A DNA stretch of 64,000 bases from an uncultured Clostridia bacterium (GTDB lineage: Bacteria > Bacillota > Clostridia > Oscillospirales > Acutalibacteraceae), in the NCBI GenBank assembly GCA_947595635.1, contig CANQEU010000002.1, positions 1 through 64,000 of the forward strand, in the 5' to 3' direction. This document shows positions 1 to 3,352 of this stretch, in pieces (within the stretch, counting starts at the first letter, position 1; each line of letters begins with the position of its first letter). The notes beneath the pieces are model-generated. The model was not told where the DNA came from, searched no databases, and saw only the letters and a list, made by a program, of their open reading frames with translations. Position numbers and translations under genes: made by a program.

Positions 1-22
1 AAGCAAAAGCTTGAAAATAAAT

Positions 23-138
23 ATTCCTTAAACGAGAATGATGAGGTGCAGGAGAAGCGAAGCTTCTCCTGCAAAAATTAAATCTTAAGCAGCAGTACCG
101 CTGCGCAGCAGCGCCTACTGCGGTTCAAGGCATACATA
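23..138. repeat. 116-bp intergenic repeat, copy 1
   Basis: This is the first of two copies of a 116-bp sequence that I find identical base for base; the second begins 299 bp further on. Each copy holds two palindromes. The first is an 11-bp perfect stem (GCAGGAGAAGC, loop GAA). The second is a GC-rich stem made of GCAGTA/TACTGC and CGCTGC/GCAGCG with a small internal mismatch. There is no ORF of note. It resembles a non-autonomous palindromic intergenic element, but I do not recognise a named family. Confidence 0.9.
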
Positions 139-167
139 GGATAAAAATTTTGTTTTGTATTCCTATG
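135..167. repeat. hairpin at the downstream edge of repeat copy 1
   Basis: CATAGGA (135-141) pairs with TCCTATG (161-167) across an AT-rich loop. The left arm lies partly inside the end of repeat copy 1. Copy 2 diverges right after CATACATA and lacks the right arm. This is a structural observation only; its function is unknown. Confidence 0.5.
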
Positions 168-225
168 ACCGCAGGCCGACCGTCTTGCGACGACCTGCCT
201 GCTACTTTAATATTATGTTATATTA

Positions 226-249
226 ACGGGGGAGCTGACGCTCCCCCGT
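226..249. repeat. 10-bp perfect hairpin between the repeat copies
   Basis: ACGGGGGAGC and GCTCCCCCGT form a perfect 10-bp stem around a TGAC loop. No T-tract follows on the plus strand, so it is not an obvious terminator. It is part of the palindrome-rich 1-440 region; nothing in this region codes for a recognisable protein. Confidence 0.6.
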
Positions 250-321
250 AAACCCCCATTTGCACGTTCAAAAAATTATTTTATAATCCGCTTTACGGGC
301 ATAAAAGCTTAATTAAGAAAA

Positions 322-437
322 ATTCCTTAAACGAGAATGATGAGGTGCAGGAGAAGCGAAGCTTCTCCTGCAAAAATTAAATCTTAAGCAGCAGTACCGC
401 TGCGCAGCAGCGCCTACTGCGGTTCAAGGCATACATA
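322..437. repeat. 116-bp intergenic repeat, copy 2
   Basis: This is identical over 116 bp to copy 1 and in the same orientation, with the same two palindromes. The flanks differ on both sides, so the shared unit has sharp ends (ATTCCTTAA at the left, CATACATA at the right). The copy ends just before the terminator of trkH. Perfect identity of non-coding DNA suggests recent duplication or insertion, or gene conversion between copies. Confidence 0.9.
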
Positions 438-458
438 TGCAAATAAATATTTTCAGAC

Positions 459-515: not shown

Positions 516-1964
516 TTACCCGTTCTTTTTCCATGCCGCAGGGAAGAACATAAGTATTAGCGGGAAAAGCTCAAGTCGTCCTGCGAGCATCGTAAACGAA
601 AGCATCAGCTTTGACAGCGGAGAAAACGCCGCATAGCTTCCGACTGGCCCTACCATTGAAAGTCCGGGTCCGGTATTGTTAAGAGTAGCCGCCGCGGCGG
701 TAAAGTTAGTTATGAAGTCAAAGTTGTCAAGGGATATAACAAGGAAGGTTGTGAAAAACAGCACAACGTAAATCGTAAAGAATATTGAAATGCTCCTTGT
801 TGTTTCGTGAGGAACCTTTTTGCCGTCCATCTTAACGGTGTGAACCGTTCGGGGATGAACGATAATCGCAAGCTCCTTTTTAATCTCCTTGAGCAAAATA
901 ATTATTCTTGAAATTTTAAATCCGCCGCCGGTGCTTCCCGCGCAGGCTCCGATAAATGTAATAATTACAATTATAGCCTTGCTGAATGCCGGCCATTGGT
1001 TTGCGTCGGTTATGCCGAAGCCGGTCGTCGTCAAAAGAGAGGTCACATAGAAAAAGCTCTGATGAGCGGAATCGTATGCCGACGGATAAAGACTGCTGAT
1101 ATTTATTGCAATAAGAACTGTTGCAACTACTATTATTCCGAGGTAGACCCAAATTTCGGTTATTTTAAAGGCCTGCTTGAATTTTCGCGTTATTATAAGC
1201 AGGTATGCCGAAAAGTTGATTCCGAACAAAAGCATAAAAACAGCGATTACGGTTTGCAGATAATAGCTGTCATATGCGGCAATTCCGGCGCTTCTGATTC
1301 CGAATCCGCCTGTTCCGGCGGTTGACATACTGACGTTAATAGCGTCAAATATAGGCATTCCGCCGCACATTAAAAGTATAAACTCAAGTGCGGTAAGGCC
1401 GAAATAAACAATATAAAGTATCGCCGCGTAGTCCCTTATTTTAGGAGTTACCTTGCCGAAAATCGGCCCGGGGCTTTCAGCCTTCATCAGATACATATTT
1501 TGCTGACCGCCGACCTTTGGTATAAGCGCAAGCAAAAACACAAGCACGCCCATACCGCCAAGCCAAATTGAAAGGCTTCTCCAGAAATTCATACAATTGC
1601 TCAGTTGTTCAACATTGGGAACAACTGAGGCGCCGGTCGTGGTGAAGCCGGATACCGTTTCAAACAATGCGTCCTCAAAATTCTTTATTTCACCGCTGAG
1701 GAAAAACGGCAGCGAACCGGCAAGCGAAAGCACAAGCCACGAAAGCGCCGTTGAAATAAAGCCCTCTTTTTGATACATCGTCATATTCTTTGGCCTTTTT
1801 CTTACAATCAAAAAGCCGATCGCCGCCAGTGCAAGCCCGACGGCAAGAAAATATATGCCGTTTTTTTCCGCATAAACGATTGAAACTATAAACGGAAGCT
1901 GCATGGCGGCTCCCTCTACAATTAATATCCAGCCGAGTATATACAGAACAATGCGTTTATTCAT
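516..1964 (-). CDS. trkH: Trk-type potassium uptake membrane subunit TrkH
   Basis: This is the ion-conducting integral membrane subunit of a Trk/Ktr-type K+ uptake system. The 482-residue protein is polytopic and shows the four pore-loop signatures expected of the family, seen as TTGAS, TGGFG, TTGFG and NTGPG; the glycine in each loop lines the selectivity filter. The length is normal for TrkH. The ATG is preceded by an AAAGGA ribosome binding site. It lies 29 bp downstream of trkA on the same strand, so the gating subunit and the channel are almost certainly co-transcribed, and a hairpin terminator follows. It could equally be named KtrB by function, but a two-RCK partner of TrkA size favours TrkH. 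Confidence 0.95.
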   Translation of the reverse strand: MNKRIVLYILGWILIVEGAAMQLPFIVSIVYAEKNGIYFLAVGLALAAIGFLIVRKRPKNMTMYQKEGFISTALSWLVLSLAGSLPFFLSGEIKNFEDALFETVSGFTTTGASVVPNVEQLSNCMNFWRSLSIWLGGMGVLVFLLALIPKVGGQQNMYLMKAESPGPIFGKVTPKIRDYAAILYIVYFGLTALEFILLMCGGMPIFDAINVSMSTAGTGGFGIRSAGIAAYDSYYLQTVIAVFMLLFGINFSAYLLIITRKFKQAFKITEIWVYLGIIVVATVLIAINISSLYPSAYDSAHQSFFYVTSLLTTTGFGITDANQWPAFSKAIIVIITFIGACAGSTGGGFKISRIIILLKEIKKELAIIVHPRTVHTVKMDGKKVPHETTRSISIFFTIYVVLFFTTFLVISLDNFDFITNFTAAAATLNNTGPGLSMVGPVGSYAAFSPLSKLMLSFTMLAGRLELFPLILMFFPAAWKKNG

Positions 1965-1993: not shown

Positions 1994-3352
1994 TTATTTA
2001 AGAATATCCTTGAGGTCGGATAATCCTCTGTGCTTCGTAACAACGATAACCGTGTCGTGCAGCTCTATGGTATCCGCGCCGGACGGACGGATGATTTTGC
2101 CGTTTCTGTTAATACAGGCTATCTGTAAATCGTCCTTAAGATTAAGATCCTTAAGCGGTATGCCCGTAACCTTGGACTCCTCGCGCACCCTGAATTCAAG
2201 AGCCTCGGCATCGTTGTGTCTTGATATATTATAAAGCGTTTCAACATTGCTGCCGACCGTGTTCTGCATTGAACGCACATATTCGGCAATAAGCTCGCCG
2301 GCAAGTCCCTTTGGATTGATTATTGAATCAAGCTGTAAGCCGTCTATTATTGAGCCAAACGAGGAGTTGTTTATCTTTGTGATTATTTTTGCGTCCGAGT
2401 TTTTCCGCAGATAAAGTGAAATAAGTATATTTTCCTCGTCGTTGTTCATAAGGGCGACTATTCCTGTAGCGTGCTGAACGCCCTCGGAATTAAGAAGGTT
2501 GAGATCCATACAGTTGCCGTTGATTATAACAGCGTCATGCAGTCTTTCGGCAAGCTCCTCGCAGCGCTCCTTGCTTTTTTCAATAATTTTAACATCAACG
2601 CCTGATTTTATCAAAAACGACGCAAGATAAAACGCCGTTTTGCTGCCGCCGAGTATTACAACACTGCGGCTGCGGCCGGACAATAGCCCAAGCTTTTTAA
2701 GAATTTTTGTAGCGTCTGCGGGCGAGGCGAGAAAAGAAATCCTGTCGTTCGGCAAAATAGTAAAATCACCGTTTGGAATAAAGGTTTCGTTTTCACGCTC
2801 GACCGTGCATATTCTTACCTTGCCCTTGAATAGCTCGGAGGTTGAGCTTACCTTTGCATTTGCCAGAAACGAATCCTCAGGAACTATGATTTTAATTATT
2901 TCTACAACGCCCTTTGCAAACGTATCTATCTCAATGGCTCCGGGGAATTTAAGAAGTCTGTCCATTTCTCTTGCGCACACAAGCTCCGGATTGATTGCAA
3001 GCGAAAGACCGAGAGTATCCTTTACCCTCGGCACGTCCTTGATGTATTCCGGATTGCGAACACGGGCTATCGTGTGCTTTGCGCCGCAGCTGCGCGCAAG
3101 CAGGCAGGCATAAAGGTTAAGCTCGTCGGAACCGGTAACGGCGATTATAAGGTCAGTGTTGTCAACCTCTGCCTCCTGTAGCGTTTCATATGTCGCTCCG
3201 TTTCCTGTAACTCCCATTAAATCAAGTGAGTTTGTAAGATTTGAAACGGCAGCTTCGTCGGTGTCGATTACAACAATCTCATGTCCCTCGCTGTTAAGCT
3301 CGGCGGCAATGGTTGAACCGACCTTGCCGCAGCCAATAATAATTATCTTCAC
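1994..3352 (-). CDS. trkA: Trk potassium transporter regulatory subunit TrkA
   Basis: This is the cytosolic nucleotide-binding regulator that gates the TrkH channel. The 452-residue protein is a tandem duplication. An RCK/TrkA-N Rossmann domain opens with IIGCGKVGSTIA at residues 3-14, followed by a TrkA-C domain at roughly 140-220. A second Rossmann unit begins near residue 230 and a second TrkA-C domain ends the protein. The second nucleotide loop is degenerate (LGGSKTA), so the two halves may bind ligands differently. The start is GTG, supported by AGGTGA six bases upstream. It is the first gene of the trkA-trkH operon. Confidence 0.95.
   Translation of the reverse strand: MKIIIIGCGKVGSTIAAELNSEGHEIVVIDTDEAAVSNLTNSLDLMGVTGNGATYETLQEAEVDNTDLIIAVTGSDELNLYACLLARSCGAKHTIARVRNPEYIKDVPRVKDTLGLSLAINPELVCAREMDRLLKFPGAIEIDTFAKGVVEIIKIIVPEDSFLANAKVSSTSELFKGKVRICTVERENETFIPNGDFTILPNDRISFLASPADATKILKKLGLLSGRSRSVVILGGSKTAFYLASFLIKSGVDVKIIEKSKERCEELAERLHDAVIINGNCMDLNLLNSEGVQHATGIVALMNNDEENILISLYLRKNSDAKIITKINNSSFGSIIDGLQLDSIINPKGLAGELIAEYVRSMQNTVGSNVETLYNISRHNDAEALEFRVREESKVTGIPLKDLNLKDDLQIACINRNGKIIRPSGADTIELHDTVIVVTKHRGLSDLKDILK

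Follow-up and report, generated by a model that had tools for sequence, protein, structure and literature searches.

This locus raises two questions: what kind of element is represented by a palindrome-rich sequence that occurs twice, without a single difference, at the left edge of the analysed stretch of DNA, and why the two copies are identical. The stretch (64,000 bp, hereafter the window) is G000:C2:1-64000, where G000 is the window's own genome (1.97 Mb, 72 contigs; an uncultured gut bacterium of the Clostridia, related to rabbit-gut MAGs), and the window starts at the first base of contig C2. Comparison of the window with itself placed the copies at 23-138 and 322-437 on the forward strand, in direct orientation and 299 bp apart from start to start, with identity over 116 bp that breaks off at bases 22/321 and 139/438. 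The preliminary description of this DNA had reported these copies, their spacing and their unlike flanks correctly. It had also given each copy a perfect 11-bp hairpin; a perfect hairpin (hairpin 1, TGCAGGAGAAGC-GAA-GCTTCTCCTGCA) is indeed present at 47-73, by palindrome search and folding, and at 346-372, by palindrome search, with arms of 12 bp and a loop of three bases. The second hairpin it had described (hairpin 2, GCAGTA..CGCTGC-GCA-GCAGCG..TACTGC) lies at 92-121, from the fold, and at 391-420, from the 299-bp offset, and the stem at 226-249 is perfect over 10 bp. The spacer module between the copies (139-321, forward strand), which holds this stem and a hairpin at 171-202, is also repeated at dozens of loci. 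As single-stranded DNA the 116-bp unit folds well beyond its shuffles (z = -5.0), and the spacer at 139-260 gave z = -6.0.

From base 1 onwards the window runs into repeat modules known at other loci, and we annotate 1-458 (forward strand) as the right portion of a composite MITE, whose left part is unseen because contig C2 begins there. The right end (438-458, forward strand) is a degenerate terminal inverted repeat, the reverse complement of which begins TGTCTGAAAATATTTATTTG; it was placed as the consensus right end, with a weak sequence match. Next to it, at 461-492 on the reverse strand, lies the presumed terminator hairpin of trkH, probably the insertion target and the right-hand copy of a target duplication, assigned from its fold and from a placement like that at nine other loci; a terminator scan made no call for this hairpin. 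The gene trkH (K+ uptake; 516-1964, reverse strand) has its 3' end toward the element and is followed by trkA (1994-3352), the pair being recognised by a PF02386 and PF02254 search. The window element thus offers a degenerate right end only, with the left end beyond the contig edge and no visible target duplication.

Dispersed copies and anatomy of the element

A 421-bp query found about 57 BLAST places in G000, and the hairpin core pattern gave 71 matches against one for a reversed control, so the window repeat is not a product of chance; the genome holds dozens of scattered copies, not merely two. Many G000 contigs end in copies of the element, which evidently breaks MAG assemblies. Among 40 relatives searched, diverged copies were found in the congeners G002 and G005; the 116-bp unit was not seen in the other three of the five congeners (G001, G003, G004) at the search sensitivity used, nor was the repeat seen in the remaining relatives, save for one 24-base match in G007. 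Across 84,980 GTDB species, in a scan that possibly left out the window's own genome, the exact palindrome pattern was confined to three MAG assemblies of Clostridia from the rabbit gut (Lapin series), and a pattern scan of IMG/VR did not find it.

An alignment of 53 copies and a reading of whole intergenic regions indicate that what moves is not the 116-bp unit by itself but a longer element, about 315 bp in length, of which this unit forms the right-hand part. The cleanest copy (L101, in G000:C1) measures 315 bp and reads GAGTTTGTCGATAAACC ... GACAG. The terminal inverted repeats are imperfect (left GAGTTTGTCGATAAACCtaTTTTTT; right, as reverse complement, CAGcCTGTCrAAAAAGCGgTTTTg), and the left end is well conserved between copies. 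At many loci the structure is a larger mosaic, A units alternating with a B module and the period lying near 300 bp. Truncation and nesting affect many elements, and the 116-bp unit also occurs inverted. Hairpin 1 has one 25-base core in 45 of 62 copies, and its arms are perfectly complementary in 53 of the 62. No reading frame is conserved in the 53-copy alignment, where the length of an A-run differs among copies; a peptide encoded by unit A was considered and rejected, since these length changes break the frame. The family is thus short, non-coding and present in many dispersed copies, and it has terminal inverted repeats, imperfect in general (GAGTTTGTCGATAAACC / CAGcCTGTCrAAAAAGCG) and degenerate in the window copy, as in a MITE.

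Several interiors may share these ends. At two loci (L126 in G002:C24, and L063) the left-end motif at a terminator hairpin is the same, but the repeat behind it is another one (AAAATAAAGTTTTCGCCCGCCTTTTTC..AAAAGGCGGC..). Upstream of a DnaJ-like gene, an orthologous insertion in two species (L127 in G002:C42 and L130 in G005:C8) has similar ends (TGTCGGTAAAC...TTCGACAGCCTG) around a different, GC-rich interior and seems to be another element sharing the inverted repeats. A short element at the upstream edge of the ortholog of the L033 gene (L198, G005:C11; ends CAGCTTGTCGCTAAAAC...TTTTTCGACAAATC) adjoins a terminator and is possibly a minimal MITE.

Insertion into terminator hairpins

The elements are located in intrinsic-terminator hairpins at gene 3' ends. 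Nine of 36 testable loci have a direct duplication of the entire terminator hairpin, with one copy at each end of the element, against 0.06 expected from mismatched pairs (sequence present in at least three loci masked; score of at least 14; loci with both flanks), and the duplicated sequence is a hairpin at all nine; the remaining 27 loci have no detectable duplication. L044, with a direct hairpin copy at each end (AGGCTTTCGCACAAAATGTGCGAAAGCCC), exemplifies the arrangement, and the duplications at L044, L047 and L014 are still perfect. Of 18 left ends, 14 lie directly at the 3' foot of a hairpin, compared with 3.0% of random positions. The length of the duplication (19-36 bp) tracks that of the hairpin (r = 0.94, 20 cases), a correlation that is descriptive, since a duplicated hairpin was what qualified a case for inclusion; this tracking suggests structure-directed insertion. 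With most DDE transposases the target duplication has a constant length. In these cases it varies with the hairpin that received the insertion, and this suggests that the shape of the DNA is what is recognised.

Between secG and prfB, where G000 carries an element (L041), the orthologous sites of G002 and G003 are ordinary terminator hairpins without the unit. Most orthologous regions are too diverged for a base-exact empty site, and few flanking genes were common to G000 and the congener loci compared. The hairpins flanking L041 (GGACACGG-TTTT-CCGTGTCC and GGACACGG-GAAAA-CCGTGTCC) look like inverted rather than direct copies. At the site orthologous to L044, two congeners (L170 in G002:C13 and L171 in G005:C11) have another insert, roughly 90-100 bp long, with a different terminator hairpin (AAACGGACCGCCG..CGATCCGTTT) directly repeated on its two sides. 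The preliminary description had proposed, among other readings, a mobile palindromic, MITE-like element, a reading that gains from the scattered copies, inverted repeats, target duplications and an orthologous site lacking the unit, although the 116 bp it had taken as the unit are not what moves.

IS1182 transposons and the proposed mechanism

We consider it very probable that the repeat family consists of non-autonomous MITEs moved in trans by a DDE transposase of the IS1182 family, through insertions that duplicate terminators. No IS1182 transposase was found in G000 by PF05598, PF13751 and protein searches, and the partner is therefore inferred from shared ends and a shared target. A profile search found DDE_Tnp_1_6 in 17 of 150 genomes of the bacterial family. 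Genome G122 has eight IS copies encoding a 474-aa transposase that NCBIfam NF033551 assigns to IS1182 (400 bits against a cut-off of 270). Transposases of the presumed partner type scored 396-400 bits with this model and contain PF05598 (DUF772) and PF13751. The G122 IS begins CAGCCTGTCGAAAAAG, and the same exact 16-mer, common to IS1182 transposons of this bacterial family, is contained in the right ends of two MITEs (L050, L051); resemblance to the IS1182 end is weaker for the left inverted repeat than for the right one. Five of six inspected G122 copies are flanked by a directly duplicated whole terminator hairpin, the sixth having different end hairpins, and an element in G125 (L141) with the variant end CAGTCTGTCGAAAAAG is flanked by a duplicated terminator hairpin too. 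The partner-type IS ends thus display the palindromic target described for some IS1182 members.

The same ends recur more widely. The sequence CAGYCTGTCGAAAAAG, which covers the 16-mer and its T variant, is present in 38 of 295 genomes across the order. Outside G000 and G122, 29 ends of this type were examined, and 22 of them abut a hairpin, as against about 3% (3.2%) of random positions. For five such ends the hairpin duplicate is 206-359 bp away, too close for an intervening transposase gene, so these appear to be other small elements. IS1182 copies with a matching end are found in other genera of the same family; G000 has none, and the congener G002 has remnants, namely transposase fragments with 65-69% identity. 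Because no IS1182 transposase is detectable in G000 and G002 holds fragments only, the element family looks old, or currently without an engine of its own in G000, though some duplications are still perfect. The broken transposase pieces of G002 lie at L079 and L203 (G002:C138 and C28), and that in C138 adjoins an IS200-like Y1 gene.

We further think it somewhat more probable than its opposite that an IS1182-type transposase reads extruded stem-loops whatever their sequence, cutting at the feet and copying the complete terminator, and that large and small elements of this kind have spread through an order of Clostridia. In the mechanism we propose, the transposase would recognise the extruded stem-loop (cruciform), the 3' ends of the element would be joined at the 5' foot of the hairpin on each strand, and gap repair would then duplicate the stem-loop. 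With the stem-loop duplicated, both flanking genes would keep a terminator, making the insertion cheap for the host. Mobilisation in trans by IS1182, recognition of the cruciform and low host cost are all inferred. If the proposal holds, the hairpin and not the enzyme sets the length of the duplication and each flanking gene retains its own terminator, which suggests how such elements could do almost no harm, since a terminator that they enter would afterwards stand on either side of them.

Targeting of hairpins by IS1182 elements is already known from IS1272 and ISCbo5. In Staphylococcus, IS1272 and TnSha1 (IS1182 family) insert into terminator stem-loops, mostly just downstream of genes (PMC5678879, PMC4923244), and the likeness lies in this entry without primary-sequence specificity; IS1272, however, deletes or replaces the hairpin without target duplication, whereas the present elements duplicate it whole and are non-autonomous. 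Duplication of a whole stem-loop was drawn for IS1272 as a hypothetical outcome (PMC5678879, Fig 13, pathway b), and in our data this pathway appears in nature, at numerous loci and across several families of bacteria. For ISCbo5 (IS1182 family, Clostridium), all insertion sites but one are gene-end hairpins thought to be transcription stops; ISCbo5 is an autonomous IS, for which we met no statement of a hairpin duplication and no MITE derivative (PMC3098183). The BOX, RUP and SPRITE repeats of Streptococcus pneumoniae are likewise short, structured and modular intergenic repeats that cluster and nest, but in different hosts, and we met no mention of gene-terminator duplication for them (PMC10969869). 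Among the openly available papers searched, we met none on a non-autonomous family with terminator duplication. Our verdict is that these MITEs form a new family, unusual in that the target duplication matches the structure entered, and built on a known kind of transposase.

The mosaic palindrome arrays at gene 3' ends also resemble BIMEs, such mosaic arrays being typical of REP/BIME sequences with RAYT transposases. Spread of REP/BIME-like units by a RAYT (Y1, IS200/IS605-type) transposase is nevertheless very unlikely here, even with two Y1 transposase matches in G000, one of them linked to a truncated repeat copy. Y1 elements do not duplicate their target, but the hairpins here are duplicated, and the inverted-repeat ends together with the long duplications speak for an IS1182-type DDE enzyme. 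Moreover, Y1 genes occur in G003 and G004, which lack the repeat, and were not found in repeat-bearing G005; the Y1 copy is bounded by ends of its own, and G002 contains it too, with 97% identity, as an ordinary IS200-like element. Membership of the REP/RAYT class, with a single-copy Y1 transposase flanked by repeats and no target duplication, was considered and rejected. The truncated copy (L042:2178-2305 at the end of G000:C57, L061:1-77 at the start of C28) ends just past hairpin 1 and enters the IS200-like Y1 element; the 77 bases that C57 and C28 have in common suggest an IS200-like insertion beside the hairpin.

Structured RNA, assembly and the identity of the window copies

The stable hairpins might instead reflect a functional non-coding RNA or 3'-UTR regulatory element under selection, an alternative that the preliminary description had mentioned. 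The position of most copies near gene 3' ends would suit this reading, as would paired changes in the inner stem of hairpin 2 in other copies (CGCTGC/GCAGCG to CACTGC/GCAGTG). Yet no Rfam family reached the gathering threshold anywhere in the window, and none was convincing at E up to 5; copies are truncated, nested and inverted, and were not found in three of five congeners. RNAalifold covariation was near zero in a weak run on 59 copies, and template switching can also yield perfect arms, so that we regard selection for an RNA as slightly more improbable still than spread by RAYT.

Least credible of all is that the doubling in the window arose by misassembly at a contig end, since, although the window begins at such an end and several other contigs end in this repeat, the two copies differ in their flanks and arrays of two or three copies with a similar period lie well inside other contigs (L014, L020, L023, L031).

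Returning to non-autonomous MITEs, the identity of the two window copies had been taken earlier as a sign of recent movement or active maintenance. Copies of unit length at other loci reach at most about 94% identity to the window unit, and variants common to both window copies (GTACCGC, CGCCTACTG) were unseen elsewhere in the alignment. The simplest account of the identity, and most likely the correct one, is therefore local duplication in tandem, or gene conversion, rather than two separate insertions. After insertion, the internal A-B modules would multiply in tandem, at a period of about 300 bp and with local homogenisation, which would leave two identical copies such as those in the window.
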